Shown: piece by piece, positions 31,473 through 61,272 of the stretch
How the letters are laid out: every line of letters starts with the position of its first letter
Position numbering within the stretch: position 1 is the first letter of the stretch
From: Sphingopyxis sp. DBS4
GTDB lineage: Bacteria; Pseudomonadota; Alphaproteobacteria; Sphingomonadales; Sphingomonadaceae
Length of the DNA stretch: 64,000 bases
Direction of reading: 5' to 3'
Assembly (NCBI RefSeq): GCF_024628865.1
Contig: NZ_CP102384.1
Coordinates: forward strand, 3,235,001 to 3,299,000
Made by a program: the position numbers and the translations under genes
The notes under the pieces: model-generated
What the model was told of the DNA's origin: nothing
Seen by the model: only the letters and a program-made list of their open reading frames with translations
The model's database searches: none

Positions 31473-31476
31473 TGCA

Positions 31477-39979: not shown

Positions 39980-40204
39980 TCAGCCTTTGTAACGAATGAC
40001 GTGCCGCGGCTCGCCGCAAAGGCCGCATGGCTCTTTGAGCCGCTCAAATCCTCCGACGCCGGCAGCTGCTCCGGTGGCGACGCTTGCCTGTGACACCGAA
40101 GAAAGGTCGAGCCGGTCTGTAATGCATTCGTCGCAAAGGGGCGCCCCATCCATTCGCCGGACGAGCGCCTCGACACGTTCTGCAATGGTTGAGCGTCTAG
40201 CCAT
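39980..40204 (-). CDS. Small zinc-finger-like protein
   Basis: A 74-residue protein with two CxxC pairs, L-C-D-E-C (about residue 24) and C-G-L-C-G (about 60), likely one zinc site. The N-terminus is helical and basic (A-E-R-V-E-A-L-V-R-R). No known function. It is the last - strand gene of the transfer module before the defence-like cargo; about 275 bases follow downstream without a gene. Confidence 0.65.
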   Translation of the reverse strand: MARRSTIAERVEALVRRMDGAPLCDECITDRLDLSSVSQASVATGAAAGVGGFERLKEPCGLCGEPRHVIRYKG

Positions 40205-40335
40205 TAGGCGGCTGTAGAGAGGGACCGAGTTTTTGGAAAGTCACCGATGTCGGACCACGGGATCGACTCGATTTGATCGTGAGAAACACCGAAATCCCCC
40301 CATATCAGGTCGACGTTCTATGTTATTCTCGCGTC

Positions 40336-40611
40336 ATGACCTCCGGCCTAGAACGAGTCGCCCGCGCACTTTGCGAGTTGGATGCAAATCCACCCAATGC
40401 GCGGATGGATGGCAAGTCGCTTTGGGAAGACTATTTGCCGGAGGCACAGGCCGCGATCATGGCTCTTCGCGAACCCGACATGACGATGATCAGCGCCGCA
40501 GCGCTCGAGGCTGGCCACGTTAGCAAAGATGAAGTCGGAAGAATCTATCGAGCCATGATCGACGCCGCGATGATCCACCAAGTGCCGACCGCAGGCAAAG
40601 CCGAGCGGTAG
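40336..40611 (+). CDS. Hypothetical protein
   Basis: A 91-residue helical protein (M-T-S-G-L-E-R-V-A-R-A-L-C-E-L-D ... W-E-D-Y-L-P-E-A-Q-A-A-I-M-A-L). It resembles short phage or element proteins of unknown function that begin with an R-V-A-R-A-L-C helix. An in-frame ATG-like start 21 codons earlier is less likely. It stands between the transfer module and the TcmP gene, facing the latter. Confidence 0.6.
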   Translation: MTSGLERVARALCELDANPPNARMDGKSLWEDYLPEAQAAIMALREPDMTMISAAALEAGHVSKDEVGRIYRAMIDAAMIHQVPTAGKAER

Positions 40612-40681
40612 GAAAAGCAGAACTGGCCGCAAGCAGACCGACAGGTTTTAGTTTCCTGGGATGAAAAGGGGACGCCGCTCC

Positions 40682-41851
40682 TTAAGGCGCGAGGTGTGGA
40701 GCAATTTTGATAGAGAAATCATCCTTCGGGCGCCTCAACACGTCGCCGCTCCACGCAGGGACAATTATGAGCCCGCGCTTCCTTAAGTCGTTAGCTATGT
40801 CACCGAGGGCGCCGTAAGTAACCGCGCAAAGATCCAACACACGCGGCCAGACATCTTTCCATTTCAAATCGGCCGAGCTCTCCGACAGGATTTGAAGCAT
40901 CGTTGACCGCGCGGCCGCCTCGCCTTGGGATATTTCGCGAGCGCTTCGCTCGCCCGGTTCCATGGCAGATTGGCCAGCAAACATGTCGTTCATTCCGCTT
41001 GCAACCCTCCGCGTCTCCGCCTTTTTCGCCGATTTGTAGGTCGCTTGGGTCTCGAGAGACTTTCTGTGTGCGTCACGGAACACCTTGATGCCGGCTGGGT
41101 GCCGAGTCAGGTAAATGAGCTTGTACAAGGGCCGATCGACCGCCGTCTCGTCGACGGTTAACGCCGGCGCGAATTTATAGTCCCCCATGCGCCGCAACGC
41201 TTGGCGGGCGCGCTCGGAAATGGCCGCTTCTCTTTCGGATCCGCGCAGTTCAGCGAACTCCGCTCTCCAACCGCCATTTTCTTGCAGATCGCCGAGCCAT
41301 CCTTCGAGTGTCGGCATCCGATCCTGTGATCCCGCAAAGCGGTTTGCGAATTGGAACATGAAATTCATGAGAACTTCCGTTCGATCCGGCGAGATCAAGC
41401 ATCGAAACTTCCGAACGTCGGGAACACCTTTGGGGTCTATGACGACGAACCGGAAGGCTCTCGCAGGAATGGCGGTCGCGATTGCGGATGCGTGATCCTC
41501 GGCCTGACCCGGGTGACAATGTATTTCAACGTCGGGAAAGCGCTTTACGGCGTCGATTAGCTCTGCAAAATTAGCGGGATCTTTCTCAACGAGGTGAGCC
41601 ACCATGGTCACTTTACGGCCGAGTTCCGCCTGCTTCGCTTTGGCTTCCGTCATCCTGCGGAGGGCAATTCCAAACGATGTGTCCGAATAATCGCCGCTCT
41701 TTGACTGCCACGGTCCGGCAAAGAGATCGACATAGGTGAATTCGTTTGCCCAGCTGACGATCTTGGGAATTTGGGCCGGCATATAGGTATCGAGGAACGT
41801 GTGCTTCACCAGCGCCTGTTCCCGACCATCGTACCAGCGCGGATCGAGCAT
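40682..41851 (-). CDS. tcmP: Three-Cys-motif partner protein TcmP
   Basis: A 389-residue TcmP-family protein: F-T-Y-V-D-L-F-A-G-P-W (about residue 38) is the Rossmann/methyltransferase-like first motif, then V-I-D-P-K-G in the middle and a helical C-terminal half. The family is defined by its pairing with a three-Cys-motif protein, and that gene lies directly upstream here, its TAA touching this ATG. The biochemical role is unknown; the pair occurs in phages and genomic islands and is discussed as modification or defence-linked. Confidence 0.88.
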   Translation of the reverse strand: MLDPRWYDGREQALVKHTFLDTYMPAQIPKIVSWANEFTYVDLFAGPWQSKSGDYSDTSFGIALRRMTEAKAKQAELGRKVTMVAHLVEKDPANFAELIDAVKRFPDVEIHCHPGQAEDHASAIATAIPARAFRFVVIDPKGVPDVRKFRCLISPDRTEVLMNFMFQFANRFAGSQDRMPTLEGWLGDLQENGGWRAEFAELRGSEREAAISERARQALRRMGDYKFAPALTVDETAVDRPLYKLIYLTRHPAGIKVFRDAHRKSLETQATYKSAKKAETRRVASGMNDMFAGQSAMEPGERSAREISQGEAAARSTMLQILSESSADLKWKDVWPRVLDLCAVTYGALGDIANDLRKRGLIIVPAWSGDVLRRPKDDFSIKIAPHLAP

Positions 41852-42589
41852 TTAGCCGGCCGCCCGCGTCAGGCGGGGCCACTCACTCCACTCGCGGCCA
41901 TCAAGCTCCCGTCCGCCAGACTTTGGTCGAAATCCGCCCCATTGTTTGAAGAAGAAAGGCACGCGCTGTTCTCGGCACGCGTCGCGTATCTCCCGTGCCC
42001 ACTCGATCCGCATCACGCGGGCATTGGGACCGCTTTCTCCGCCCGCTATGACCCAGTGTATGTCCTTCAGGTCAATAGGGCCTACAGAGCCTATGAGAGG
42101 TTCCACCGATAGAAAGCGGACTGCGGATTTGGCCGCACGAAGATGGGCAACCCGCGCCGCGCCTTTCTGGTCTTCGACGGATACGCCTACCCATATGTGC
42201 GCGGGCGGGCTTCTGTCGGCATAGCGGCCATTCATATAGTCCCGGAGCCTCGGGCTCCGCTTGGTCAGGACCTGGTACGTGTGCCAATTGGCCGCCTCCA
42301 TCGTGTCGAATATCCGATCGATGAAGGATGTCGGTATGGCCTTATGGAAGAGATCGCTCATCGAGTTTACGAAAATCATCCGTCCACGGCGCCAGCGCAG
42401 TGGCTGATCCAAGCGCTCGGGCCGGAGGGTCAGGTCAAACCCGTTTTCGAAGGGATGGCCCGGCACTCCACGGAACCGCTCGGAGAAGCGCGCGGCATAG
42501 CAGTTATCGCATCCAGCGGTGATCTTCGTGCAACCTGTGACGGGGTTCCACGTAGCGTCGGTCCACTCTATTGCGCTGTGATCAGCCAT
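41852..42589 (-). CDS. DUF5131 (phage Gp37/Gp68) three-Cys-motif protein
   Basis: A 245-residue protein with the N-terminal motif W-N-P-V-T-G-C-T-K-I-T-A-G-C-D-N-C-Y-A, whose three cysteines are the radical-SAM-like cluster ligands that name its TcmP partner. Further family strands are F-V-N-S-M-S-D-L-F and V-I-A-G-G-E-S-G. It probably binds an iron-sulfur cluster and S-adenosylmethionine. Its start faces the AbiE-like gene across the repeated operator region. Confidence 0.88.
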   Translation of the reverse strand: MADHSAIEWTDATWNPVTGCTKITAGCDNCYAARFSERFRGVPGHPFENGFDLTLRPERLDQPLRWRRGRMIFVNSMSDLFHKAIPTSFIDRIFDTMEAANWHTYQVLTKRSPRLRDYMNGRYADRSPPAHIWVGVSVEDQKGAARVAHLRAAKSAVRFLSVEPLIGSVGPIDLKDIHWVIAGGESGPNARVMRIEWAREIRDACREQRVPFFFKQWGGFRPKSGGRELDGREWSEWPRLTRAAG

Positions 42590-42747
42590 TGTCGTTCTGC
42601 TTTGCCCCGTCTCGAAATCGATTAGACAACCGAATTTTCGTGAAGCTGAATCTCACATAATCCGTGCGAATGGAATCCGGTTTTTGCAGTAGAGGATTTG
42701 AGGCTTCCTGCTGAAGGTCCACAGGCTGGGCGCGGCGCCATTCTGTC

Positions 42748-42886
42748 TGTCCGAAGAGTGCAACATGCTTCGGACATAGCTGTCTGAAGTTTACATCATG
42801 GTTCGGACATTGCCGTCCGAACGAAGTGACATGCTTCGGACAAATTAAAATAGACATTGTCCGAAAAATGTATCATGCTTCGGACA
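42748..42886. promoter_or_regulatory. Four inverted-repeat operators before the AbiEi-like gene
   Basis: Four 29-base sites share 8-base arms TGTCCGAA ... TTCGGACA (one or two changes in the left arm) around a 13-base spacer: 42748-42776, 42781-42809, 42814-42842 and 42858-42886. Starts are 33, 33 and 44 bases apart, so all face the same side of the helix (multiples of 11). The last site ends on the A of the start codon. AbiEi proteins are known to repress their operon by binding inverted repeats, so this is the likely operator array; it could also control the divergent DUF5131 gene. Confidence 0.88.
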
Positions 42887-43557
42887 TGATGGGGAAATCG
42901 TCCGGAGCCGACGATGATGTGGGCAGGAACATCATGCGCCGAGTAAAGCGAAAGCTGGGCCAAGCATGGACCCCGGCAGACTTCAGCGACCTCGGCAACC
43001 GGCAGGTCATCGACAAGAATTTACAGCGTCTGACCAAGGCTGGCGAACTCCGCCGCATCGATCGAGGGCTCTACGATCGCCCCGTCCACAACGAACTTAC
43101 GGGCAAGCCCTCGGTCCCCGATTATCGCGCGGTCATCGAGGCGGTCATTCGCCGGGACCAAGCCCGCATGGTTGTCGACGGCATGACAGCCGCTAACGAC
43201 CTCGGCCTGACGACGGCTGTGCCGGCGCGGATCGAGGTCTTGGTGGATGCGCGGCTGAAACCGATCACGCTCGGCAACCAAGAAATCACCTTCAAGCACG
43301 CCGCTCCGAGCCGCCTCTATTGGGCTGGCCGCCCTGCAATGCGAATCGTGCAAGCACTCTATTGGCTCAAGGATGTGATCGACCGCAGCGAAGAGGAGCG
43401 CACTCGCGTCTATGACGCGCTCTCCGCGATATTGTTGGACCCAAGGCACGGCCGGACCCTTCGCAAGGACTTGAAGGACGGCCTCGCCGCACTTCCGATC
43501 TGGATGCAGGACTTCCTCCGCGAACTCGTCACGCCGGCCAAGGTGCGGCGCGCGTGA
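42886..43557 (+). CDS. AbiEi-like antitoxin/transcriptional regulator (DUF6088)
   Basis: A 223-residue protein with an N-terminal winged helix (D-F-S-D-L-G-N-R-Q-V-I-D-K-N-L-Q-R-L then G-L-Y-D-R-P) and a C-terminal domain like the AbiEi/DUF6088 family. It would be the antitoxin and autorepressor of the nucleotidyltransferase toxin encoded next. I start at the first of two ATGs (42886); the frame is open to a GTG at 42826, but that would place the operators inside the gene. Four-base overlap with the toxin gene. Confidence 0.85.
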   Translation: MMGKSSGADDDVGRNIMRRVKRKLGQAWTPADFSDLGNRQVIDKNLQRLTKAGELRRIDRGLYDRPVHNELTGKPSVPDYRAVIEAVIRRDQARMVVDGMTAANDLGLTTAVPARIEVLVDARLKPITLGNQEITFKHAAPSRLYWAGRPAMRIVQALYWLKDVIDRSEEERTRVYDALSAILLDPRHGRTLRKDLKDGLAALPIWMQDFLRELVTPAKVRRA

Positions 43558-44594
43558 CCCGCGCCGGCTACCAGCAGATCATCGGGTCGAGAGAAGCCGA
43601 TCGCCGGGACCTGTTCCTGTCGGCCGCGAACCGGCTTGGCACGCCGCTCGGCAATGTCGAGAAGGATTTCTGGGTCTGCTGGACGCTGGACCAGCTCTAT
43701 CATGAGCGCAGCGCCGACCAGCCACGGCTGCTCTTCAAGGGCGGCACCTCGCTTTCGAAGGCGCACGGCCTCATCAAGCGCTTTTCCGAGGATATCGACG
43801 TCACCATATACAGGGACGATCTCGGCGAAGCCGCGAGCGTCGACGAGCTCGAAGCGTTGTCGGGCAAAAAGCGTGAAGCGAGACTCGACGCCATCCGGGA
43901 CGCCTGCAGCACTTATATCACCGGTCCTCTCCAGACCGATATCGCGGCGCGCCTCGCCGAGGCCACGAACGGCGCGGGACGCGTAGAGATCGACAAGGCC
44001 GACCGCGACTCCCAGACCCTGCTAGTCTGGTATCCGTCGCTCGAACATGACGAAGCGAGCTATATCAAGCCAGCCGTCCGCATCGAATCTGGTGCCAAAT
44101 CGGCGCTCGATCCGAACGGCAAAGCCACGGTCACGCCCTATGTCGCCGAAGAGTTGCCGGATCTAGATCTCGCGGTTGCCGAAGTAACGACGATCGACGC
44201 CGAGCGGACCTTCTGGGACAAGATCGTCATCGCGCACGGGCTGCGCAGTTGGTTCGATCGCCGAGGCGTCCTCAAGAATGAGGGCCAGCGTATATCGCGC
44301 CACTATTATGACCTTCACTGCCTTGCGGATACCACGCTTGGCCGCGAAGCGATGGAGAAGGATGAACTTGGCGCCGACTGCGTGCGTCATGCCCGCATGT
44401 TCTTCAATCGACCCGACTTCGACCTCGCCTCAGCGGCGAAAGGAAGTTTCAGCCTCGCGCCGGCCAAGGCGATGCGCGAGGCGCTGCGGCGCGACTATGC
44501 CGCAACCGAGGCAATGATCTTCGGCAAGGCTCCAGCCTTCGACGAAATCATCGCAACCACCGAGAAAATCGAAGCCAAGGTGAACGGCCAATGA
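43554..44594 (+). CDS. AbiEii/AbiGii-type nucleotidyltransferase toxin
   Basis: A 346-residue DNA-polymerase-beta-fold nucleotidyltransferase. The family motifs L-L-F-K-G-G-T-S-L-S-K and F-S-E-D-I-D-V (the catalytic Asp pair) lie at about residues 60-85. AbiEii toxins stop growth when antitoxin control fails and can abort phage infection (type IV toxin-antitoxin). It is translationally coupled to the upstream regulator. A second, unrelated-in-sequence AbiE pair lies at 58.7-60.2 kb. Confidence 0.88.
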   Translation: MTRAGYQQIIGSREADRRDLFLSAANRLGTPLGNVEKDFWVCWTLDQLYHERSADQPRLLFKGGTSLSKAHGLIKRFSEDIDVTIYRDDLGEAASVDELEALSGKKREARLDAIRDACSTYITGPLQTDIAARLAEATNGAGRVEIDKADRDSQTLLVWYPSLEHDEASYIKPAVRIESGAKSALDPNGKATVTPYVAEELPDLDLAVAEVTTIDAERTFWDKIVIAHGLRSWFDRRGVLKNEGQRISRHYYDLHCLADTTLGREAMEKDELGADCVRHARMFFNRPDFDLASAAKGSFSLAPAKAMREALRRDYAATEAMIFGKAPAFDEIIATTEKIEAKVNGQ

Positions 44595-44734
44595 TCGCCG
44601 ACATCCAACTGGATTCGGAACAGAAATTCCCAACCGGTTCGCAGAAAGTCGTGCGGCCTTTAAGGAATACTGCAGTTTTGGGGCTAAACGGCGGCGATAT
44701 TCATTGCCGACTCGCCCTGTGTTTCGTAGCGAAA

Positions 44735-44780
44735 GCGAATCATTGCGCCCTGCCGGCCCGGCAGGGCGCGTTCGATTCGC
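44735..44780 (+). promoter_or_regulatory. Long two-tier hairpin directly before the ribosome site of a 63-residue gene
   Basis: Inner perfect 11-base-pair stem GCGCCCTGCCG / CGGCAGGGCGC with a GCC loop (44745-44769), plus an outer 7-base-pair stem GCGAATC / GATTCGC (44735-44741 with 44774-44780). The structure ends one base before GAGGAGGA. It could terminate the toxin transcript, insulate the next genes or control their translation. Confidence 0.7.
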
Positions 44781-44791
44781 GAGGAGGACCC

Positions 44792-44983
44792 ATGAAAAAT
44801 GGTATAAAGTTACTCGCGGACAATACCTACGGACGTGTAGAGATTTCCAATCGCAAGGAATTCAAGCACTTCAATCTTCGACCATCGAAGAAGGCCGTCG
44901 AAGAAATCGAACGGCTCGAAGAGCTGACGCTCGCGGCAGAACAGCGACTCGGAAATTTCGTCGTCGGCGCGAACCGCGGCTGA
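44792..44983 (+). CDS. 63-residue protein upstream of the peptidase-like gene
   Basis: A short charged, helical protein (K-N-G-I-K-L-L-A-D-N then A-V-E-E-I-E-R-L-E-E-L-T-L-A-A-E-Q-R-L, a probable coiled coil) ending in V-V-G-A-N-R-G. ATG 44792 has an excellent GAGGAGGA site. The frame is open upstream, but that part crosses the hairpin and is not credible. It lies 18 bases before the 559-residue gene and is surely co-translated with it. I do not recognise a family; it may be a partner, inhibitor or substrate of the peptidase. Confidence 0.7.
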   Translation: MKNGIKLLADNTYGRVEISNRKEFKHFNLRPSKKAVEEIERLEELTLAAEQRLGNFVVGANRG

Positions 44984-45001
44984 TCGGGAGGCAATCGCTG
45001 A

Positions 45002-46681
45002 ATGCAGGCTCAAATCCAGGTAGGACCCCTGCTCGGCGAAGACGACTGGACTGAATTGGCCGAATTGGTGGGGGCCGACGAGTCCGCGCTGCTGCAACAA
45101 TTGCTACGCGATTACAGGGAGGCGGGTGCGAAGGCCTATCTCCTCGAGCGGGCCTATATCGACCGCGACTTCTCCGCCGCCTATTCGGCCTTCTATTCGA
45201 CCCTATTCCATCCCTATCTCAAATATTGCCAGCGTCTCCACTTCTTCGGGTGTGACCTTTCGTATCTCGGCAAGGTCGATAGCCCCGAAGGCCTGTCGCG
45301 CGAGGTCGCTTCACATGACGACGACTATCTTGGCTTTGTGGTGCTGCGCCCCGTTTCCCACGCGCCGGTTGCAGCGGCGGTAATCTCGGCAGCTGCGATT
45401 GCTTCCGACCCCTCGACGATCATCGACGTAACGGCGGATTATCCCGTTCACCTCGTGGGGGCTGACCTTACTGTCACGGGATTCCCGCTCACCCAGCAAG
45501 ACACACGCGTCGGCGCCTGCGCGCAGGCGGCAATCTGGATGGCAGGACGCCATTTCCATCGCGCGCATGGCGGACCCTGGTTCTCGATGCCTGACATCAA
45601 TGATGCGGCGCTGAAGCCCACAGACAATTTCGTGACCCGCTCACTTCCCGCCGGATCGGAGTTCCTGAGGCCCGACAACATAATCCGGGCGCTACGGGCG
45701 ATGGACCGTCATCCGGTCTTCGATCTCGGCAAGGCCGCGGTCGAACAAGGGGTCGGCATCAAGCCTCTGCATGAGGTGATTGGTCGTTATCTCGATTCCG
45801 GCATCCCAGTGCTGATCGGGCTAAAGGGCCGGGACGGCGCGACGGTCGGCCATGCTGTCGTTGCCATCGGCCGGGTGATGCGCGAACGCGGCGATGACGA
45901 CCTGCCCGATGACCCGACCTCGGCCGAACTGATTTCGCATCTCATCGTCGCCGACGACCAGAGGGGGCCGGTCTGCCGCCTGCCGGTCTACAAGGACGAC
46001 GCGCTGGAGGCGGGCGCGCCCGGTGCCTATCCGTGGACGCTCGAAGAGGATGCGGTTTATTCAGTGACGCCGCTGCCCGGGAAGGTGTTCATGACCGGCG
46101 AAGTTGCCGAAACACTGAGCCGCGACTTTCTTGCGAGCTGCGTCGAGCGCATCGAAGAGTATCGCGAACTCGCCCGCATGCGCGCCGGCGAAGGCAGTGC
46201 TGCACTCGGCAAGGCGATCGCCGTCGATCCCTCCTTTTTTGCGGTTTCGCCTTCAAGACTCGTGGCGCGGACCTATCTTACCTATGGCTGGCGTTATAAG
46301 GGCAGGACGCTCCGCAATCGGCTTCCCGATATCTTCAAGTTCGAAATCTTCCGACACCAATATCCACGCTACGTGTGGGTGACCGAATTCTCGCTTCCCG
46401 ACGATCTTCGCGGTTTCGACCAGTGCCAGCGGAAGGTGCGTGCCCATGTCGTCGTCGACGCGACAGGCAGCAAGTTCGGCGAGAGCATGCTGATCGTCCA
46501 GGTGCCCGGGCTTTCGATGTTCTGGACGTTTGACGCCGACAGCCCGACCCAGACTTATAACCTCATTTTCCGGACGACCGACGAAGCCGAACCCTTCCTG
46601 CCCAAGGTCCGCAATTGGCCCGACTTCGACCAGTGCGAAGTGCCGGACGCCGGGTCAGATTCGGACGCCAAGCTGGCTTAA
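45002..46681 (+). CDS. Papain/C39-like cysteine-peptidase-fold protein
   Basis: A 559-residue protein. Residues about 165-320 show the ordered triad of a papain/C39-like fold: Cys in R-V-G-A-C-A-Q-A-A-I-W-M-A (about 176), His in V-G-H-A-V-V-A-I-G (about 287) and Asp in L-I-V-A-D-D-Q-R-G (about 321). The N-terminal 160 residues contain a Y-L-G-F-V-V-L-R-P strand, and the C-terminal 200 residues are mixed alpha/beta without a known match. No signal peptide or membrane helix, so it acts in the cytoplasm. Its 3' end overlaps the convergent E1-like gene by 27 bases. Confidence 0.7.
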   Translation: MQAQIQVGPLLGEDDWTELAELVGADESALLQQLLRDYREAGAKAYLLERAYIDRDFSAAYSAFYSTLFHPYLKYCQRLHFFGCDLSYLGKVDSPEGLSREVASHDDDYLGFVVLRPVSHAPVAAAVISAAAIASDPSTIIDVTADYPVHLVGADLTVTGFPLTQQDTRVGACAQAAIWMAGRHFHRAHGGPWFSMPDINDAALKPTDNFVTRSLPAGSEFLRPDNIIRALRAMDRHPVFDLGKAAVEQGVGIKPLHEVIGRYLDSGIPVLIGLKGRDGATVGHAVVAIGRVMRERGDDDLPDDPTSAELISHLIVADDQRGPVCRLPVYKDDALEAGAPGAYPWTLEEDAVYSVTPLPGKVFMTGEVAETLSRDFLASCVERIEEYRELARMRAGEGSAALGKAIAVDPSFFAVSPSRLVARTYLTYGWRYKGRTLRNRLPDIFKFEIFRHQYPRYVWVTEFSLPDDLRGFDQCQRKVRAHVVVDATGSKFGESMLIVQVPGLSMFWTFDADSPTQTYNLIFRTTDEAEPFLPKVRNWPDFDQCEVPDAGSDSDAKLA

Positions 46682-47563
46682 CAGGCGGCGCCACCACGAT
46701 CCGCTGGTCGGCGCCACGCGCGTCTCCTCCCGTTCCGTTTCTGACTGCCTTGCCGGCGCCGGACGTCGAACATCGAACAGCGGGTCACCGGTCTCGCATG
46801 CGCCATGGTGCCGACATGTTTGCCCGGCGACCGCCTTTAAGCGATTGCTTGTCGCGACCTGATGACGATTGCCATCATATTCGAGGTAGACGCTGGCGAC
46901 GGGTTCGCGCATCCACGGCAGCAGCAGTTGCATGACGAGGCCCACGGCCAACGACGCCAGCACGCCGTTCGGCCAGACCACCTGCGGTTTGCCGCCGGCG
47001 GCGCCATATTTCTGCGCCTCTTGCTCAAGCCGCGCGTCGGTGAGAACGCCAAGGCACCAGAGGCATGGCCCGCCCGGGGAAGACAGGATGACCTGGCCGC
47101 CGATCGCGAATTGATCGCCGAGGTCGTGAACGTCCATGCCCATATCGATACAGGGGATCATCATCCGGCGGCAGAAGGCTTCGAGTTCGCTCCGTTCGCG
47201 GTAGGAATCGACGCCGCCGACGATGATGTCGCATTCGGCGAGCGCCTCGGTTGCATCCTGCCACCTGCATGCAAGAGCAAGGAAACGCGGCGCCGCGACG
47301 AGCCCGCGCACCATTCGTTCGGCGACATCCGCTTTCGGCGTCGCGTTCTCGGCGTCGGCGGCGGTTGCACCGACGAGGCGGTTGAGATTGCTGTCCTCGA
47401 CGATATCGGGATCGACGCAGACGAAGCCCCCGATTCCCAGATGGGCGAGCTGCTGCACCACATGCGAACCGCCGCCGCCGAGGCCGACGATGCCGATCGT
47501 CACGGCGCGGAGCCGGGCGTCGCTGTCCGGCCCCAGAAAATCCTGCCGGTCATAGCGGCTCAT
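46655..47563 (-). CDS. E1-like ThiF-family adenylyltransferase of a ubiquitin-like system
   Basis: A 302-residue E1/ThiF protein. The nucleotide loop G-I-V-G-L-G-G-G-G-S-H lies at about residues 23-33, with the following D-P-D-I-V-E-D-S-N-L-N-R that binds ATP-Mg. A C-L-W-C pair (about 205) and cysteines near the C-terminus could hold zinc or the catalytic thiol. It would adenylate the C-terminus of the multi-ubiquitin protein. ATGA overlap with the JAB gene; last gene of the operon. Confidence 0.9.
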   Translation of the reverse strand: MSRYDRQDFLGPDSDARLRAVTIGIVGLGGGGSHVVQQLAHLGIGGFVCVDPDIVEDSNLNRLVGATAADAENATPKADVAERMVRGLVAAPRFLALACRWQDATEALAECDIIVGGVDSYRERSELEAFCRRMMIPCIDMGMDVHDLGDQFAIGGQVILSSPGGPCLWCLGVLTDARLEQEAQKYGAAGGKPQVVWPNGVLASLAVGLVMQLLLPWMREPVASVYLEYDGNRHQVATSNRLKAVAGQTCRHHGACETGDPLFDVRRPAPARQSETEREETRVAPTSGSWWRRLLSQLGVRI

Positions 47564-48069
47564 GACATCGCTCCTTCCATCCAGAGGGTGGCGCCGACCG
47601 CGGTGAACCGGGCAATGGGGAGCGGTCCCTGACCACGCGCAAGCCAGAGGTCTCCCGCTATATTGTCGGCGCTCAGCACGATCGCGCCATGCGGTACATG
47701 TGCGGCGACGTTGAAGAAGTCGGGCACGAACTTCGCATTCTCGCGAATGTCAGTGCCGCTGAACCCGGGACGGCCGCGATGTTCGTGCATATGGACGTGC
47801 AGCGCCGCAGTCCGCGACTGGTAGCTGCGCTGCAGCGCCTTGCGGATTGCCTTTGACCCCATCATCGCGCCGACGCTCGGGTCGTCGATATAGTCGGCGT
47901 CCTCGACCGGGTGATAATCCTGCGCGAGGAGAAATAGGCTGCCATCGCCGATGCGCGACACGCCCGCCGAAATCCAGCCAACGCGCTCATATGCGAAGGC
48001 GTGACGCCGCCTCAAGTCGCCTCGAATGGCGTCGAGAAGCGGGGCGCGGATCTTGAAATGGACGTTCAC
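47560..48069 (-). CDS. JAB/MPN-domain metallopeptidase (deubiquitinase-like)
   Basis: A 169-residue JAMM-type peptidase. The catalytic Glu lies in A-Y-E-R-V-G-W (about 28), and the metal motif is H-V-H-M-H followed by P-G-F-S-G-T-D (about 91-106). It could trim the modifier's C-terminus or remove it from targets. I choose GTG 48069, which overlaps the E2 stop as GTGA, in line with the four-base overlaps throughout this operon; longer in-frame starts would run deep into the E2 gene. Confidence 0.88.
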   Translation of the reverse strand: MNVHFKIRAPLLDAIRGDLRRRHAFAYERVGWISAGVSRIGDGSLFLLAQDYHPVEDADYIDDPSVGAMMGSKAIRKALQRSYQSRTAALHVHMHEHRGRPGFSGTDIRENAKFVPDFFNVAAHVPHGAIVLSADNIAGDLWLARGQGPLPIARFTAVGATLWMEGAMS

Positions 48070-48395
48070 CGGAAGGCCGCCAGATGATTTGCAAGGATGG
48101 AAGTCCATGGCTGTTCTGCCTCGATGTAGTTCCAGGACCAGCAAAACCAGTTCCGGGTGAAGAGATTGTGCTGGGTCCAGTTTGCGAGATGACCGGGAAC
48201 GGCGGCGTTAAGGAAGAGCCGCGTCTTATAGCCGCTATGCTCGTGAGGGCAGAGCAGCGCATCGCGCGTCACCGGTCCCGCCCGCGTCGCGATCACCAGC
48301 CCGGGCAGATGGACGAAGGTACGGCCACCTTCGACCAGCGCGACCGCATCCGGGTAGATGGCCTTGATGCGGTCGAACTGATCTTCGGCATTCAC
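48066..48395 (-). CDS. E2/UBC-like conjugating enzyme (prokaryotic E2 family)
   Basis: A 109-residue protein that fits the short prokaryotic E2 family in multi-ubiquitin operons. Strands F-V-H-L-P-G-L-V-I and C-P-H-E-H-S-G-Y-K-T-R-L-F-L are followed by H-N-L-F-T-R-N-W-F-C-W-S-W-N, whose cysteine is the best active-site candidate, and W-T-S-I-L-A-N-H-L-A-A at the end. It should accept the activated modifier from the E1. Four-base overlap with the multi-ubiquitin gene. Confidence 0.82.
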   Translation of the reverse strand: MNAEDQFDRIKAIYPDAVALVEGGRTFVHLPGLVIATRAGPVTRDALLCPHEHSGYKTRLFLNAAVPGHLANWTQHNLFTRNWFCWSWNYIEAEQPWTSILANHLAAFR

Positions 48396-49069
48396 GAGGA
48401 GCCGCCCTGGCGAACGTGGCTGACGAACTTCATGCGGGCGATCACGCGGATCGCCTCGCCGGGCTGCAGGGTGCGGAAGCTGCCCTGCTTGTCGACGACG
48501 TCGAGGTCGAGATCAGCCGATACGCCGAGCGCGTCCTTCAACGTTTCGGTCGTATAGTCGCCGGCGAGGATCCGGACCTTGTCCCCGTTGAGGTCAACAT
48601 TGACGTAACGCGGTTCGTCCGAGCGGTCGGCAGTGTAGAAGTGCTCGACCTCCTTGCCCTTGAGGGTGACGCTCTCGGTATCCTCGACGAGGTCGTCCCT
48701 GCCGCCCTTCGGGTCGAAAAAGATATCCTTAGCCGCCGGCACTAGCGCGAGAACGCGGAGTTCCGCGCCGCTGATCTCATCCTTACCCCAAGGGAAACGG
48801 CGCCCGTCGACGACAAGGAAGAAGAGGCGGTCGGCCTTCACCGAGCTGAACTCTTCCTTGCCGCTCGCGCGAAGGTCGATTTCTTCAGCGAGGTTGATGT
48901 CTTCGAGCAACCCGTCGCCCTGGCGATAGAAGAGCAGATGCTCGTCGACCGGGATACGGCCCGCGATTTCGAGCAGGTCGCGGCCCTTGACCAGTGGGTC
49001 GCTCAGCAGATGTTCGACGCCGTCGATCGTGATCGCAAAGCGCCCAGACATGGAATTCTCGTTCGTCAC
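48392..49069 (-). CDS. Multi-ubiquitin-like modifier protein with three beta-grasp repeats
   Basis: A 225-residue protein made of three ubiquitin-like units (about residues 8-75, 78-150 and 152-220), each opening with a strand such as R-F-A-I-T-I-D-G or L-F-F-L-V-V-D-G-R. It ends V-R-Q-G-G-S-S: a Gly-Gly pair followed by two residues, so it must be processed before activation. This is the Multi_ubiq type of prokaryotic modifier. GTG 49069 has a GGAG site at the right distance; ATG 49051 is the alternative. First gene of the operon. Confidence 0.9.
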   Translation of the reverse strand: MTNENSMSGRFAITIDGVEHLLSDPLVKGRDLLEIAGRIPVDEHLLFYRQGDGLLEDINLAEEIDLRASGKEEFSSVKADRLFFLVVDGRRFPWGKDEISGAELRVLALVPAAKDIFFDPKGGRDDLVEDTESVTLKGKEVEHFYTADRSDEPRYVNVDLNGDKVRILAGDYTTETLKDALGVSADLDLDVVDKQGSFRTLQPGEAIRVIARMKFVSHVRQGGSS

Positions 49070-49111
49070 AACATTTCTCCATACGAAGGCACTTGCGCCT
49101 TGTTGACGTTT

Positions 49112-49132
49112 TCGACATGATGATCGTGTCGA
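49112..49132. promoter_or_regulatory. Palindromic operator between the modifier operon and the XRE regulator
   Basis: A 21-base near-perfect palindrome with arms TCGACA / TGTCGA and the inner GAT-ATC match; only three positions including the centre deviate. A related pair of ATGTC half-sites lies at 49152-49167. It sits 43 bases before the modifier start and 57 before the regulator start, overlapping the likely promoters (TAAAAT at 49139-49144), as expected for an autoregulated XRE protein. Confidence 0.7.
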
Positions 49133-49188
49133 TAACGCTAAAATAGGAAACATGTCGTTTATGTCAATATATTCATCGCGAAATCGCC

Positions 49189-49539
49189 ATGACCGATAAC
49201 AGCGGATCAGGTGAGATTTTCCGGGCCCGGCTTGCAAGTGCCCGTGATGCAAGGAAAATCAGCCAAGGCGACCTAGCAAAAAAAACTGGCCTCCCGGCAA
49301 GTTCGATCTCGCATTTCGAAGGTGGCGGTCGCAAACCATCTTTCGACAATCTGCTGAGGCTCGCCGACGCGCTCGATGTTACGACCGACTATCTGCTCGG
49401 GCGCAGCGAGGATGTGGGCACGTCCGTGGCTGCGCAGAAGCTCCAAAAGCATCTGGACGGGTTGAATTCCTATGATCTCGATATTGCAGAGAAGTTCATC
49501 GAAGTTCTCGCCAGCAAATCGACGAAGCCACCCGGGTAG
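49189..49539 (+). CDS. XRE-family transcriptional regulator
   Basis: A 116-residue Cro/CI-type repressor: residues 12-70 form the helix-turn-helix (I-S-Q-G-D-L-A-K-K-T-G-L-P-A-S-S-I-S-H-F-E-G-G, then L-D-V-T-T-D-Y-L-L-G-R-S). The tail is helical. Divergent from the ubiquitin-like operon across a 119-base region with a palindrome, it is the likely switch of that operon. Confidence 0.9.
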   Translation: MTDNSGSGEIFRARLASARDARKISQGDLAKKTGLPASSISHFEGGGRKPSFDNLLRLADALDVTTDYLLGRSEDVGTSVAAQKLQKHLDGLNSYDLDIAEKFIEVLASKSTKPPG

Positions 49540-49611
49540 AAGGTGCGAAGTGTAAGTTGCGAGCTCAGGGCGTCCGCGGTCCATCAAGCCGATAAACCGG
49601 AACCGTTGAGG

Positions 49612-51261
49612 TCATTGACGGCTAGGGAGCGGCGTTTCCCGACCAGAATCCGATCCGTTACCTACGGCTTCGGCGACCTCAAGCCGCTCCGGACCGACCT
49701 CCCGCAGGTGATCGGGGTGAATCATGATTGGATGCTCATATCGTGATGCAAGCTCCTCCATGTACTCATAGAGATCGGGGACCATCGGCCGCACGTCAAT
49801 TGGTCGAAAGGATACCGAACTGTAGACGCGCTGATCACGCGTGGTGGGCTGAAGTTCAATCTCAACGCCGTAGCTAATGCCGTCGCCCGCGAGCTCGGCA
49901 CTGTTGAAGTAGATCGCCTTTAAGGCGCCCCCATCCCCCGCGATTGTATCCGTGTCGAATGCGAACCGAGCCTCTGGCTTTGCCCGAAGAAGCAGATCCG
50001 CAGCCAGCTGGATCCAGCGGCTGTCCCACAGGTCACCAATCGCGAGGGAGGCCTTGGATCGCACGCCGGCCAGTTCAAGCAACCGCCGCCAATCGGAGGC
50101 GATCTTGTAAAGCGCCGGCAGGTCCTCGACGTCGGGGCCGGTTAGCACATTGCTCATAGGCAGTTTGATCGGGCCAAAGCGACCGTCGTCACCGCTCATT
50201 ACGATTGCACCTTCGCCCGAGGCGAGGTTGGCCATTGCGCGGAGCAGCATCACGAGGTCGTCGAGCGTCCGGCCGCCCTGCTCGAAGATGCCCTTGGTCT
50301 CGAAATCCGCCTCGCGCTCATGGAACAGGAAGCTGAAGTCGGCGTGACGGATGAGCATCCGCAGGCGCGCGTCGAAGGGAGGCGCGAAGAATATCTCGGC
50401 GTGGAAGGTAGCAGGCGGGGTCAGTGGCGCGCCGGTCACCACGATCTCGCAACCACCGGCTGAGGGAGGCGAAAGCATGATCTCCTCAACCGCGTTCAGC
50501 ATGTCGTGATCATAGGGCACCGGCATATCGAAGCGATTGTCGAAGGCCTGAATAGCCAACGGCTTCAGCGGAACCATGCCGAGCACGACGCGGGTCAGCT
50601 GCTCGTCGCTGTCCGGTCTGAAGAAGACGTCGCCGACGATGCGGTCATCACCGTAACCCAGTTCCGCGAGCTGGCCGAGCTTCTCGGCTGAATAGGCGGC
50701 AGGATCTGGGCCGCATGCCCGTTCGATCGCTGCGCGAAGGCCCTGCGGCGTTACCTCAAAGGGGTGGCCGAGCTTGCGGTAGTCGAAGGAGATCGACTGT
50801 CGGTTGATATCGCGGTTTCCGATGAATTGCTCGTGCCTCAACCTGCGGAGCAGTTTCTCAAGCGGCGCGCCGAGAAGATGGACGACATAGCCCCTGATCG
50901 GCGTGCCATCGGGCCTCATCCTGAAGACGATGATGACCGCGGGAAGCGGGCTTTTCGCAAGCAAGTCCGCGGCGGACAATCGCAGTTGGACATTGCCAGT
51001 CCCGACCGACTTCGTGGCCTTTAGCTGGACATGACAGGTCGTCTTGCTGCGCTGGTCCAGGATGCCGTCCTGCATAGGCAGGTCCACGACGAAATCCCAT
51101 CCCGAACGGTCGCGGTCACTCTTGTTACAGACGATAAGCGCGCGCGGGCAAAGATAGATGAAAAGCCCTTCAGCCGCAGCGCCGAGTTCATCGTTAGGAA
51201 GATCCAAGACGACGGGAACGCCATCGCCCTCGGCCCTCGCCTCGCCTTCCGAACCACCCAT
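49612..51261 (-). CDS. DUF4365-like protein, putative restriction-endonuclease fold
   Basis: A 549-residue protein. Residues about 40-100 resemble the DUF4365 nuclease-like fold: S-G-W-D-F-V-V-D-L and H-V-Q-L-K-A-T-K-S give an Asp and a Q-x-K motif spaced as in PD-(D/E)xK enzymes. The remaining 430 residues are unrecognised mixed alpha/beta. ATG 51261 overlaps the DUF2971 stop (TAATG). Such proteins are common in defence islands, but nuclease activity is inferred. Confidence 0.65.
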   Translation of the reverse strand: MGGSEGEARAEGDGVPVVLDLPNDELGAAAEGLFIYLCPRALIVCNKSDRDRSGWDFVVDLPMQDGILDQRSKTTCHVQLKATKSVGTGNVQLRLSAADLLAKSPLPAVIIVFRMRPDGTPIRGYVVHLLGAPLEKLLRRLRHEQFIGNRDINRQSISFDYRKLGHPFEVTPQGLRAAIERACGPDPAAYSAEKLGQLAELGYGDDRIVGDVFFRPDSDEQLTRVVLGMVPLKPLAIQAFDNRFDMPVPYDHDMLNAVEEIMLSPPSAGGCEIVVTGAPLTPPATFHAEIFFAPPFDARLRMLIRHADFSFLFHEREADFETKGIFEQGGRTLDDLVMLLRAMANLASGEGAIVMSGDDGRFGPIKLPMSNVLTGPDVEDLPALYKIASDWRRLLELAGVRSKASLAIGDLWDSRWIQLAADLLLRAKPEARFAFDTDTIAGDGGALKAIYFNSAELAGDGISYGVEIELQPTTRDQRVYSSVSFRPIDVRPMVPDLYEYMEELASRYEHPIMIHPDHLREVGPERLEVAEAVGNGSDSGRETPLPSRQ

Positions 51262-51917
51262 TACTGCCACAGATCCTCCCTCCGCTGCGTAACTACGCGA
51301 TACGTCCCGAATGCCAGGCGCGCCTTGTGCGCTACAACCCCCCGCGCCCCATCGCCAAGCGCCTCTGCGACCTGAGCGCGCGTCGCGGGGCAGTCGGCGC
51401 CTACGATGACCTCCCGCAGGACTAGGTCGCCATCGAAGCCGCGATACCAGATCCGGCACGCATCATCATAGGTTTCGAGGTCGACGATCATGCGCACTTC
51501 ATCCTCGTAGGTCCAATGGACAAACTTCACGTCCAGCGCTTTCAGCACGAATGATCCCATGTCGAACCCGGGCGCATCGATGACGGTGGCATCGACGGCG
51601 GCGCGGGACTTCCGGTACTGCACATCCCGCAGCAGCCGGTCAGGCACGTCGAAGCCCAGGCACAACCCGCGGTGATGGTCTGCATAGTGGCTCCACTGAA
51701 CCGGGTTGCGCCAGCCTCGGCTGAAGCACAGCATGCCCCGCCGCTCACCGAATTCCTTTCGGGCCTTGCCCAAGGTGGCGCGGAGACCACTATCTTTCAG
51801 GTTCAACGAAAGCATCTCGAACGGGTCATTCACGTCAGCGAGAGTCGCGACTTTCAACCGCCTTCGGGCGATGTCCTGGAGACCGTATTCGCAGTTGACG
51901 AAGTGGTAAACGCGCAT
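51261..51917 (-). CDS. DUF2971 protein
   Basis: A 218-residue DUF2971-type protein: Y-H-F-V-N-C-E-Y-G-L at the N-terminus, D-V-N-D-P-F-E-M-L, then C-F-S-R-G-W-R-N-P-V-Q-W-S-H-Y-A-D-H-H-R-G-L and a downstream Y-E-D-E-V-R motif, all typical. The family is frequent in defence and toxin contexts; some members resemble ADP-ribosyl-transferase-like folds, but the activity here is unknown. The frame is fused upstream to transporter remnants, so I take ATG 51917. Translationally coupled to the DUF4365-like gene. Confidence 0.75.
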   Translation of the reverse strand: MRVYHFVNCEYGLQDIARRRLKVATLADVNDPFEMLSLNLKDSGLRATLGKARKEFGERRGMLCFSRGWRNPVQWSHYADHHRGLCLGFDVPDRLLRDVQYRKSRAAVDATVIDAPGFDMGSFVLKALDVKFVHWTYEDEVRMIVDLETYDDACRIWYRGFDGDLVLREVIVGADCPATRAQVAEALGDGARGVVAHKARLAFGTYRVVTQRREDLWQ

Positions 51918-51989
51918 CGCGCTAGAATTGCCGAGAAACGGAGTGCCAGCCAATAGCCAATTGGGCCGAGTCCATGAATGACCGCTTTC

Positions 51990-52601
51990 GGATCCAGTGG
52001 TCGTCGCCGCCGTCCATTGACCGTCTTCAAGCAAGATCGAAGCGAGTGTCAGAACGGTCGCCGACACCAGTCCCACCCAGGCCTGAAAGCGGAACGGTTT
52101 GACGCCATCAACCTGCTTCATCAGCACCGCGCCAGCGGCGCCGGCGAAGGCGCTGGCGGCGACGAACCAGAGCCCCGTCGAAAGCGAAAGTCCACCGGGC
52201 CGCCAGGTCACGATCAGCACGCCGACCAATGTCAGCGCGATGCCCAGTCCGCGGCGCTAGTAGATACGCTCGCCGAGCACCAGCACCGAGAGCAGCATGG
52301 TAAAGGGGACACCGAGCTGCAGAATAATCGCGGCCTCAGAAGGTGAGACAGTCTGCAAACCGACGAAAAGTAGTGAAAAGCTTCCGCCGCCCAGGCACAG
52401 GGCGATGGCAACAATCCGCCATGCCGGCCGCGGCATCGGCAGCAACCATGGCCACATGACCATCGCGACGACCGCAAAGCGTAGCGCCGCATAGAAAAGC
52501 GGCGGGACCGCCCAGTCCGTTACTATAATCTTGCTCAGGACATTGTTGAATGCCCAGATCAGGCACACGGCGACGAGAAGGAAGAAGTCACGAACGCGCA
52601 T
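51990..52601 (-). pseudogene. EamA/DMT transporter remnant, nonsense codon and 3' loss
   Basis: From ATG 52601 the frame encodes a normal EamA N-terminus (F-F-L-L-V-A-V-C-L-I-W-A-F-N-N-V to V-L-G-E-R-I-Y), stops at TAG 52257-52259, then continues in the same frame with family-typical R-R-G-L-G-I-A-L-T-L-V-G-V-L-I-V-T-W and membrane helices until about W-T-A-A-T near 52000. After that the similarity ends abruptly and DUF2971 leader sequence begins. About 100 C-terminal residues are missing, so this is a decayed gene cut by the cargo insertion. Confidence 0.75.
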
Positions 52602-52610
52602 GTGCCGGGT

Positions 52611-53540
52611 CTACTCCGGAGCCTGCACAGCTTCTTCAAGGTTCGCTATCCGTTCAGAGCAGATGGCATGCACGGCGCGGCCCAGCTCCTCCACGCGTCC
52701 AGCCAGCCAGAGCAATTCTTCTTCGCTGATTCGATAATGTTTGGAGTAGCGAGCCTTCACATAGGCTTCCTTGAGCTTCTCGAAGCGCGCGCGGTCTGCC
52801 TTCACCTCGCGCGGCCAAACATCGACAAGCCGCATGTTTAATCGCTCGGCTTGCGTGCGCAAAAATCCCAGGTTGTGGACGTGGGGCGTGTAAAAATTGC
52901 AGACCAAGAGCACGCAATGATAGAGAAACTCACTGCTCTGATGGAGGTCAAACGCGGCGGGCTTCAGAAACCCTTTTTCGCGGCCCATCTTGGACAGCTC
53001 GAACCGCTGCATGGCGAGCGGAAACCACTCGTCGAAATATTCCTGCGCCATCGCCAGCGCCTGCTCGGGCGTCTTGGGCTTCGGCTTGTGCAATTCCTTG
53101 TCGTCATATTCGTAGAGCGCGATCCCGTCGCCCGCGACGTCCATGAAGAAATAGCGGCCGTGAGCCAGCCCATCGTTCACTTCCTGCAGCGTGTGGACGA
53201 TGAAGTTGACCGGCGTGTGCAGCGTCTTGTCGATCGCAAGCTCGCGGGTCAGCCGGTCGTCGAGCTTCGACCAGAAGTCGATCTTGTCGGTCAACCGCTT
53301 GTCGTTGACGATGATCAGGAGATCGAAGTCCGAACGATAGCCCTTTGCGGTGTGCGGCTCGTCGACCCAGCCACCGCGCGCATAGCTGCCGTAGAGGATG
53401 ACCTTGTCGATCCGACCCTTCTTTTTCCAGCCCATGGTGCCGAGCGCGATCGCATCCTCGAATTCTTCGAAGATGATCGCCTTCACACGTTCGAGCTCGC
53501 GCTGCTTGTTCGCCGGAAGATGATCGAGATCGGTTTTCAT
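52611..53540 (-). CDS. Nucleotidyltransferase-HEPN fusion protein
   Basis: A 309-residue protein joining a minimal nucleotidyltransferase (K-V-I-L-Y-G-S-Y-A-R-G-G at about 45-57 and S-D-F-D-L-L-I-I at about 69) to a C-terminal HEPN domain (residues about 165-300) with the R-Y-S-K-H-Y motif typical of HEPN RNases. Separate MNT and HEPN proteins form toxin-antitoxin pairs in which the transferase AMPylates the RNase; fused forms are known too. ATG 53540 starts the frame. Confidence 0.85.
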   Translation of the reverse strand: MKTDLDHLPANKQRELERVKAIIFEEFEDAIALGTMGWKKKGRIDKVILYGSYARGGWVDEPHTAKGYRSDFDLLIIVNDKRLTDKIDFWSKLDDRLTRELAIDKTLHTPVNFIVHTLQEVNDGLAHGRYFFMDVAGDGIALYEYDDKELHKPKPKTPEQALAMAQEYFDEWFPLAMQRFELSKMGREKGFLKPAAFDLHQSSEFLYHCVLLVCNFYTPHVHNLGFLRTQAERLNMRLVDVWPREVKADRARFEKLKEAYVKARYSKHYRISEEELLWLAGRVEELGRAVHAICSERIANLEEAVQAPE

Positions 53541-53602
53541 TGATTTTCATCCTGTAATCCTGCTCGCCGGATGGCAAGCGCCGTCAGATCCAAATCGACA
53601 AC

Positions 53603-54556
53603 TCAGGCTTCCTTGAGCCGAAAATCCCAGACCGGAATGCCGAACGCCCGCGCCTTGTCGACAAGATTGTCCTGGATGCCGATGCCCGAAAAGACGACCA
53701 GCCCGGCGGGCATCGCATCGATCAGCCGCTCGTTGCGCTTGAACGGCGCCGCTTTCTTGTGCCGGTTCCAGTCGGGCCGGAACGCTACCTGCGGCACGCC
53801 GCGCGCATCGGCCCAGCAGGCCGCAGCGCGCTCGGCGCCGGTTGGCGTCGCACCATGCATCAGCACCATGTCGGCATGACGCGCATGAACCTTGTCGAGC
53901 GCCGACCAGATGTGGCGGTGATCGTTGCACGCCGGTCCGCCGCTGAAGGCGATGCGCGTTCCCTCGGGGATCAGGGCCTGGGCCTTTTCGCGGAGGCGTT
54001 TGTCCATGAAGTCGCGGCTGTCGATCATCGCCGCGGTCATCGTCTTGTGACGGACGCGCGACCCAGTGCGCGGGGTCCAGGCCTTGCGGGCATGGATGCG
54101 GAACTGCTCGGCGGCGCATTCGCGGAAAAATTCCATCGTGTCGCGCCGCTCGATCATCGTGATGCCCTCGGCGATCGCGCGCTCGAGTTCGACCGAGCGA
54201 ATTTCGCTTCCATCCTGCTCGCGCTGGAGTTCGCGCTGCGCCTGTTCGTTGCGGTCGAGCTCGCGCTCGATCCGTTCGCCGGCGCGGTGAAAGATATTGA
54301 CGATGCCCCAGAGCAGATCTTCAAGATCGGGCTCGATGCGGGTATCGACCAGGCAGCCCGCCAATGCGTCGAAGATATCGGCGACGGCGCCGCCAGCGAG
54401 CCGGTCGTCTGGAAGCGGCCGTGCGTCGGGTTCGTCCTCATAGGGCCTATGACCGTAGCGGAATAGAAACAGCCGAGAACAAGGGCATGGAGCACCGCAG
54501 CGAAGGCAATGGCCGGATCCTGGGCAAAGGCGTCCTGGAGCGCGAGCGTGCGCCAT
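53603..54556 (-). CDS. DUF2493 (SLOG-like) protein, 5' end lost and fused to parB sequence
   Basis: The recognisable DUF2493-type gene begins at Y-G-H-R-P-Y-E-D-E-P-D (about 54460) and runs through L-E-D-L-L-W-G-I-V-N-I-F-H-R and M-T-A-A-M-I-D-S-R-D-F to the Rossmann-like I-A-F-S-G-G-P, H-G-A-T-P-T-G-A-E-R and I-Q-D-N-L-V-D-K-A. The usual first 35-40 residues are absent. The frame is open to ATG 54556 only through shadow sequence of parB, so any protein made either carries a chimeric head or starts internally. Homologues on related elements are intact and separate from parB. Confidence 0.7.
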   Translation of the reverse strand: MAHARAPGRLCPGSGHCLRCGAPCPCSRLFLFRYGHRPYEDEPDARPLPDDRLAGGAVADIFDALAGCLVDTRIEPDLEDLLWGIVNIFHRAGERIERELDRNEQAQRELQREQDGSEIRSVELERAIAEGITMIERRDTMEFFRECAAEQFRIHARKAWTPRTGSRVRHKTMTAAMIDSRDFMDKRLREKAQALIPEGTRIAFSGGPACNDHRHIWSALDKVHARHADMVLMHGATPTGAERAAACWADARGVPQVAFRPDWNRHKKAAPFKRNERLIDAMPAGLVVFSGIGIQDNLVDKARAFGIPVWDFRLKEA

Positions 54557-55920: not shown

Positions 55921-56044
55921 GGGCTTTCTCCATGACGGGCCGCCGCGAGACACTCTCCCGGCTCCTGGACCCGTCACGAAGGCGCCAGCCCCCCTCTTCC
56001 TCCCGGGGGCCGCGCGTGGCGGTCCCGGCAGGCGGCCAGGCGCG

Positions 56045-60474: not shown

Positions 60475-61230
60475 GTGAAGCATTTTAATCTGACGGAGGA
60501 ACTCGCACACGACATATCAGGCGCCGACAAGGAAGAACGGCTCTTTGCCGCCCTGTCGAACGCCGCCGACCGCATGGGATTTGATCTTTTCGCGCTCGCC
60601 TTCGATCGCCGCGGCGGCGGCGGCGAGGGTGCATCGATGCTCGTGCATAATTATCCCGACGCCTGGGCGAATGTCTATGTCGGCTTCGATCTCAGCGGCA
60701 CCGACCCGATCCGGCGCGCCGGCGAAAAATCCATGACGGGTTTTCAATGGCGCAATGTCGATCACTACATCCCGCTTTCTCGCGGTGACCGGCAGTTGCT
60801 GAAGGTCGCCCGCGAGAGCGGAATCGGCGACGGCTTCACGGTGCCGCGGCACTTGCCTGGCGAAGCGACCGGAAGCTGCTCCTTTGCCGTCGCTCCCAAT
60901 GCCAGGATCCCGCTCGAGATGCTCCACGCCGCCGAGATCGTCGGCGCCGTGGCGCTCGCCGCGGCGCGGCAGCTCATCGGGACAGGCTCCTATACTCCGC
61001 GGGCGGCGCTGACCGAGCGGCAGCGCGAATGCGTGCTCTGGTCCGCCCGCGGCAAGACTGCTGGCGAGACCGCCAGCATCCTCGGCATCAGCGAAGAGAC
61101 CGTGGTCCGTCATCTCAAGATCGCGCGCGAGCGCTATTCAGTGCCTTGTCGGCAAATGCTGATCCTCTGCGCCCTGTTCGACGGCGTCATCGGCTTTTCG
61201 GATGTCTATGACTGGTGGCGCCCGCTCTGA
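60475..61230 (+). CDS. LuxR-family quorum-sensing regulator
   Basis: A 251-residue protein with an autoinducer-binding domain (residues about 20-165, with Y-V-G-F-D-L-S-G-T-D-P-I-R and F-Q-W) and a C-terminal GerE helix-turn-helix (L-T-E-R-Q-R-E-C-V-L-W ... G-I-S-E-E-T-V-V-R-H-L). It would bind an acyl-homoserine lactone and act at the lux-box-like site before luxI. GTG 60475 is the likely start; no better ATG lies in frame. Confidence 0.92.
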   Translation: MKHFNLTEELAHDISGADKEERLFAALSNAADRMGFDLFALAFDRRGGGGEGASMLVHNYPDAWANVYVGFDLSGTDPIRRAGEKSMTGFQWRNVDHYIPLSRGDRQLLKVARESGIGDGFTVPRHLPGEATGSCSFAVAPNARIPLEMLHAAEIVGAVALAAARQLIGTGSYTPRAALTERQRECVLWSARGKTAGETASILGISEETVVRHLKIARERYSVPCRQMLILCALFDGVIGFSDVYDWWRPL

Positions 61231-61256
61231 CGCTCGCACATAAATCGTCCCGGGAT

Positions 61257-61272
61257 TGCCCATTTCTGGGCA
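61257..61272. promoter_or_regulatory. lux-box-like palindrome before luxI
   Basis: TGCCCA-TTTC-TGGGCA forms a perfect 6-base inverted repeat with a four-base spacer, centred about 65 bases before the luxI start and 34 bases after the luxR stop. Position and size suit a LuxR-type operator. Confidence 0.6.

Follow-up and report, generated by a model that had tools for sequence, protein, structure and literature searches.

Described relatives of the operon

The closest described relatives of the operon treated here are the bacterial ubiquitin-like conjugation operons of type 6e, Bub and BIL (BilABCD). The type 6e operons predicted by Iyer 2006 encode one to three ubiquitin-like repeats (polyUbl) and a cysteine-less E2/RWD-like protein; as described there, this protein occasionally has a gene of its own, placed between polyUbl and JAB+E1, and in most cases E1 carries JAB (or another domain) as a fusion, although a JAB gene adjacent to E1 is allowed (PMC1779556). 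A 2026 paper counts 544 Bub operons, of which 219 carry CapW or CapH plus CapP (PMC13373217). In BIL the modifier BilA has two repeats, and E1 and E2 work through cysteines, with a catalytic Cys138 in BilB and a Cys417 domain in BilD (PMC11354881). Here we describe a four-gene operon of Sphingopyxis sp. DBS4, which lies in a stretch of 64,000 nucleotides (contig NZ_CP102384.1, positions 3,235,001 to 3,299,000), referred to as the window. An earlier note had read it as a complete modifier, E2, JAB and E1 operon of the BIL/Bub type. On sequence grounds a complete four-gene ubiquitin-like conjugation operon is confirmed at 46655-49069 (Table 1). Since the published descriptions of type 6e and Bub cover kin operons, it is best classified as a Bub variant that is split and Cys-free. 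The Bub/type 6e kind is thus already known, and the newly noted part is a sister clade in which the operon is joined to IetAS.

Table 1. Position of the operon genes and of associated features in the window
Feature	Position	Strand	Remarks
Modifier (Ubl) gene	48392..49069	-	225 aa; three beta-grasp repeats; GTG start; GGAG 7 bases upstream; C-terminal RQGGSS
E2-like gene	48066..48395	-	109 aa; BubB-type fold (predicted), no conserved cysteine
JAMM (JAB) metalloprotease gene	47560..48069	-	169 aa; E28, H93, H95, S104, D107
ThiF-type E1 gene	46655..47563	-	302 aa; GGGGSH, N59/R62, D119, C167/C170...C250/H252, Tyr186; WWRR tail
XRE/CapH-like repressor gene	49189..49539	+	116 aa, divergent; HTH_3 2.2e-14; PADLOC capH 1e-17
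Promoter-like site TTGACA-16-TATTTT	49140..49167	-	candidate operon promoter
Divergent intergenic region with conserved ACATGTCGA-like elements	49070..49188	.	alignment of window, L005, L010, L011, L012
Papain/C39-like cysteine peptidase candidate	45002..46681	+	convergent; overlaps E1 gene end by 27 bases; C173, H284, D318/D319
Trb-type conjugation gene cluster	17440-33259		13-29 kb from operon

Gene content and conservation

The four genes lie on the same strand and, as the note had stated, follow each other with four-base overlaps (GTGA, GTGA and ATGA). When genome contigs were scanned with an alignment of E2 relatives, the E2, JAMM and E1 genes occurred in the same order at 24 of 24 loci, which argues against a chance arrangement. 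The modifier was present at 23 of these 24 loci; it was weak at L028 (1.8e-5, one repeat). The loci span sphingomonads, rhizobia, Dyella, Nitrospira, Acidobacteria and Verrucomicrobia, and about half are in metagenome-assembled genomes. With eight plasmid loci the screen comprised 32 loci, five of which (L005-L009) are near-identical copies of the window operon. Ratios of non-synonymous to synonymous substitution (Ka/Ks) of the four genes were 0.07-0.15 in comparison with the copy of Sphingopyxis italica and 0.15-0.36 for the more distant L011 and L012, so all four are under purifying selection. The E2 gene was found in 6 of 60 same-genus genomes (the own genome counted) and in none of 39 others of the order, a sporadic distribution such as mobile genes have. 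Seven of 11 plasmids with a JAMM relative were typed as conjugative.

Modifier, JAMM and E1

The modifier has three units, as the note had claimed. Pfam Multi_ubiq matches two stretches of it (6.1e-25), and profile comparison with hhalign linked repeats 1 and 2 (probability 93.7%, E 1.9e-7). Repeat 3 has no Pfam match, yet it was linked to repeat 2 (probability 83.5, E 8.3e-6), with a weaker link to repeat 1 (probability 30.7%). Sequence matches in the PDB were 8u38, 9d5b, 9cd2 and 9d59, the top one being named Ubl-BilA. Among relatives, L014 and L028 have a modifier of just one repeat, and that of L026 is partial. Its tail has the form G-x-S-S: leaving out the near-identical copies, the Ser residues at -2 and -1 were each present in 26 of 27 rows. 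Because Gly was found at -4 in 27/27 rows and at -3 in just 17/27, the JAMM probably cuts after the -4 Gly, with no strict Gly-Gly rule, and the mature C-terminus would be Gly222 (codon 48406-48404). The genome has a second Multi_ubiq gene (L004, contig C2, 9483-10300), apparently truncated, with one repeat (24.7 bits) and, as judged by eye, adjoining transposase-like open reading frames; a second E2 was not found in this genome.

The JAMM has no Pfam match, but its active residues (E28, H93, H95, S104 and D107) were invariant in 21/21 aligned rows, and in a second structure aligner its predicted model matched a Bub structure best (BubCD fold). The note's peptidase and ThiF-type E1 were both borne out. 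E1 has one match to Pfam ThiF (6.1e-29) in its 302 residues and matched BubCD at 3.1e-14. Tyr186 (codon 47008-47006) in its crossover loop was Tyr in 33/33 family rows and in 21/21 rows of a mixed Bub alignment, and may be regarded as a mark of Bub. The 21-row alignments still hold near-window copies, L005 for JAMM and L006 for E1. The conserved cysteines of E1 are a zinc-like C167/C170...C250/H252 set and C111 of a core strand. The E1 C-terminus (window 46655-46740 and the E1 ends of relatives) consists of a variable linker and a W-R-rich tail, which occurred in 17 of 28 E1s (copies excluded); L019, L028 and L054 are among those that lack it.

The E2-like protein

No Pfam match was obtained for the E2-like protein. 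None of 20 E2 family members matched Pfam Prok-E2_E at E <= 1, and this model found nothing in the own genome; it does match in other genomes. The family is tied to Prok-E2_E remotely and by profile-profile comparison only, in an alignment whose L042 row was mis-extracted and whose L031 is a weak match; for this reason we call the operon a variant. Prok-E2_E is itself a library label and not a stated definition of Bub. The predicted model of E2 had a Bub structure (BubB) as its best match in the second structure aligner, followed by TSG101 UEV domains, which lack the E2 cysteine.

The invariant residues of the family are Ser87 (codon 48137-48135), H53, G55-Y56, RLF, W73, W83 and H104; Ser87, H53, W83 and H104 were unchanged in 20/20 aligned rows, and the E2 of L042 carries YQRWSRHR. 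In the model Ser87 lies after the last strand and before the last helix. E2 has no invariant cysteine and E1 has none beyond the zinc-like CxxC...CxH set. In other words, conserved catalytic cysteines are lacking from both proteins.

Comparison with Bub and type 6e

The solved Bub proteins of Citrobacter (PDB 9ea4, 9ea5, 9ea8, 9eae, 9eav) share with the window operon a multi-repeat modifier of tandem beta-grasp units, the predicted, Cys-less BubB-type fold, the JAMM fold and active residues and the crossover-loop tyrosine of E1. CapH/CapP control is a further likeness, seen in relatives of the window operon. The E2 of the window differs in being a separate protein of 109 residues, and the modifier ends in G-x-S-S instead of the NNG of the BubA construct. 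Two to three ubiquitin-like repeats, a Cys-less E2/RWD-like protein and its gene between modifier and JAMM are all compatible with type 6e as described by Iyer 2006, and so is a JAMM gene that adjoins E1 (PMC1779556). The zinc-finger protein of type 6e was not noticed at the window operon, where no dedicated search was made for it.

Proposed mechanism and alternatives

From the gene content, residue conservation and shared promoter region established here, and from the predicted folds, we infer reactions and regulation as follows; any role in phage defence would likewise be hypothetical. The JAMM would trim the G-x-S-S tail to Gly222, which E1 would adenylate. A BubB-like E2 bound to E1 would then help to pass the modifier to its target; this transfer would involve no Cys thioester and would most likely run via oxyester chemistry at Tyr186 of E1 and/or Ser87 of E2. 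JAMM could reverse the conjugates, and the CapH-like XRE repressor would keep the operon off until stress. That the locus is a Bub-type split conjugation operon working in this way is, on balance, probable.

Several points weigh against it. E2 sequence profiles retrieved no PDB chain, and Foldseek alone gave no E2 match at E <= 0.001, with TSG101 UEV first (0.2) and BubB second (0.30). Repeat 3 of the modifier failed to align with repeat 3 of the BubA type (0.4%, profile comparison). A two-residue gap adjoins the Tyr column in the mixed Bub alignment, and the role of Tyr370 in BubCD was taken from the name of a construct and its sequence. JAMM and E1 form one protein in the solved Bub, as do modifier and E2 in L030-type relatives, whereas the window genes are all separate; BubCD also lacks the CxxC/CxH set of the window E1. 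Finally, Ser87 might be structural instead of catalytic.

In an alternative which we regard as possible but less likely, the E2-like protein could be a non-catalytic scaffold of the UEV/RWD type, with E1 alone handing over the modifier from the adenylate or from a Tyr186 ester. The lack of a conserved E2 cysteine and the rank of the UEV domains behind BubB would fit a scaffold, and Iyer 2006 predicted the E2/RWD-like domain to be inactive (PMC1779556). However, a pure scaffold need not keep the four residues unchanged in all 20 rows, and in the model, judged without superposition, Ser87 sits roughly at the usual place of the E2 cysteine.

A canonical thioester cascade, in which Cys85 of E2 is the active thiol, is very improbable. 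The earlier note had pointed to a short E2 with a candidate thiol in an aromatic context, and its description was accurate, since the protein has 109 residues and Cys85 stands in WFCWSW, two residues ahead of Ser87; the relative P0002 shares the cysteine. Nevertheless position 85 was Cys in only 1 of 27 rows without near-identical copies (Ala 20, Thr 5, Ser 1) and in 2 of 20 close relatives. E1 has no Cys domain, and its conserved cysteines are those named above. Since no cysteine outside the zinc-like set is invariant, the catalytic-thiol reading is unsupported. We give no more credit to a sulfur-carrier or metabolic ThiF-type pathway: E1 does resemble ThiF/MoeB, but JAMM and BubB-like partners are present, and the neighbours that were scanned belong to defence, to mobility or to the unknown genes, none of them being biosynthetic.

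The note's BIL/Bub assignment stands on the Bub side, and BIL identity was rejected on sequence as the least credible alternative: the order modifier-E2-JAMM-E1 and the name of the top PDB match of the modifier recall an antiphage BilABCD system, but the operon has no counterpart of BilB Cys138 (CEHH) or of the BilD Cys417 domain (PMC11354881), a single adenylation domain of 302 residues instead of an inactive and an active one with a Cys domain, and three modifier repeats instead of two. The note's remark that some related operons protect against phage accordingly applies to BIL; for Bub such protection is described as undemonstrated in the 2026 paper (PMC13373217).

The IetAS-joined sister clade

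In a sister clade of the window operon two more genes come after E1 on its strand, gene 5 for an AAA+ ATPase and gene 6 for a subtilase; the pair is absent from the window. This was found at 9 of 32 loci (L013, L015, L016, L017, L020, L021, L023, L048 and L049), or 9 of 27 without copies; several of the remaining contigs stop close to the operon, and absence is therefore not established at every one of these loci. PADLOC identified the L013 pair as IetA (4.9e-76) and IetS (3.9e-38). Taken from its earliest possible start, IetA overlaps or abuts the E1 end in L013, L015, L020, L021 and L048, and in the remaining four loci it begins about 60-130 bases after E1; in L048 and L049 the annotated start lies further downstream. 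In all nine pairs the GPPGVGKT (Walker A) and LLLDE (Walker B) sequences and the Asp, His and Ser motifs of the subtilase were invariant. The nine loci form one clade (ultrafast bootstrap 100) in a tree that omits L005-L009 and L054; identical rows were dropped elsewhere in the analysis. IetAS is otherwise known as a stand-alone two-gene system. A review includes it in its list of anti-phage systems (PMC10286901). Literature searches found no published description of the IetAS-joined conjugation clade.

Regulation

The note had also given the operon its own XRE switch, which agrees with an XRE gene that runs divergently and shares a conserved intergenic region with the operon; the regulation itself is presumed from sequence. 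The ACATGTCGA-like elements and the TTGACA and TATTTT/TATCTT blocks are kept in L010, L011 and L012 (S. italica, Novosphingobium and Sphingopyxis H115), and the region is probably the operator of the XRE gene. Taken alone the promoter-like site is weak, since one was found and shuffled sequences gave a mean of 0.7. CapP cleaves CapH upon binding of single-stranded DNA (PMC13373217). The window has the CapH-like gene but no match to CapP within 40001-56000. L011 has an XRE homologue of 69% identity followed by a CapP-like M78 peptidase, and a CapP-like match was near the operon at 17 of the 32 loci (weak in L014, 28%). The place of CapH/CapP upstream of the operon is taken by an Xre/RES toxin-antitoxin pair in L018, L053 and L055, and by annotation in L052. 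In L022, L050 and L051 an exonuclease gene lies beside CapP upstream of the operon; that of L022 is RNase_T plus Exonuc_X-T_C.

Neighbouring genes and mobility

The convergent peptidase candidate has no Pfam match of its own; Peptidase_C39_2 was weak, below the cut-off, in two homologues. Q166, C173, H284, D318 and D319 were kept in 118/118 family rows, comprising the window protein and 117 of 120 listed homologues (those >480 aa) out of 312 found. Of 9 sphingomonad loci, 8 have it beside the operon: all 8 genome loci (five of them near-identical copies; in L006 and L012 the gene is cut short by the contig end) and not the Sphingobium plasmid L052. All 6 same-genus genomes with the operon have it, and 2 of 54 others have distant homologues only. 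The gene follows an AbiEi/AbiEii pair and a small open reading frame (44591-44983), and may belong to a separate AbiE-linked run instead of the operon. AbiE-type genes (window 42826-44594) also occur within about 10 kb of operons in L010, L011, L016, L048 and L049, the sphingomonad and rhizobial copies being 27-33% identical.

The note regarded the operon as cargo of a conjugative element. The Trb-type cluster is indeed present, but cargo status is no more than plausible, as is co-mobility. In S. italica (G341) a relaxase with 100% identity to that of the window lies on another contig than the operon, which there has a 65% relaxase homologue 27 kb away. Identity is also 100% in G302, where relaxase and operon are near contig ends and could be joined. 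However, in G299, a draft of about 70 contigs that carries the operon, no homologue of the window relaxase was found. Beside the XRE gene lies a gene for a 615-aa protein (49612-51459; DUF4365 weak, below cut-off), found in the copies L005, L007, L008 and L009 and not in L010-L012. The window also holds a LuxR-type regulator and autoinducer synthase pair (60475-61908).

Significance

The operon makes ubiquitin-like conjugation without an active-site cysteine in E1 or E2 testable from small, separately expressible proteins. Because relatives encode conjugation genes and then IetAS consecutively, the question of a bacterial ubiquitin-like tag feeding an AAA+ protease becomes testable as well. 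More speculatively, and with considerable doubt, the operon family may represent a bacterial ubiquitin-directed destruction pathway: cysteine-free ester tagging, followed by unfolding and cutting by a dedicated IetAS in the sister clade (the convergent papain-like peptidase taking the protease place in the window's clade), under a DNA-damage switch via CapH/CapP. If true, this would be proteasome-like logic assembled from unrelated proteases.

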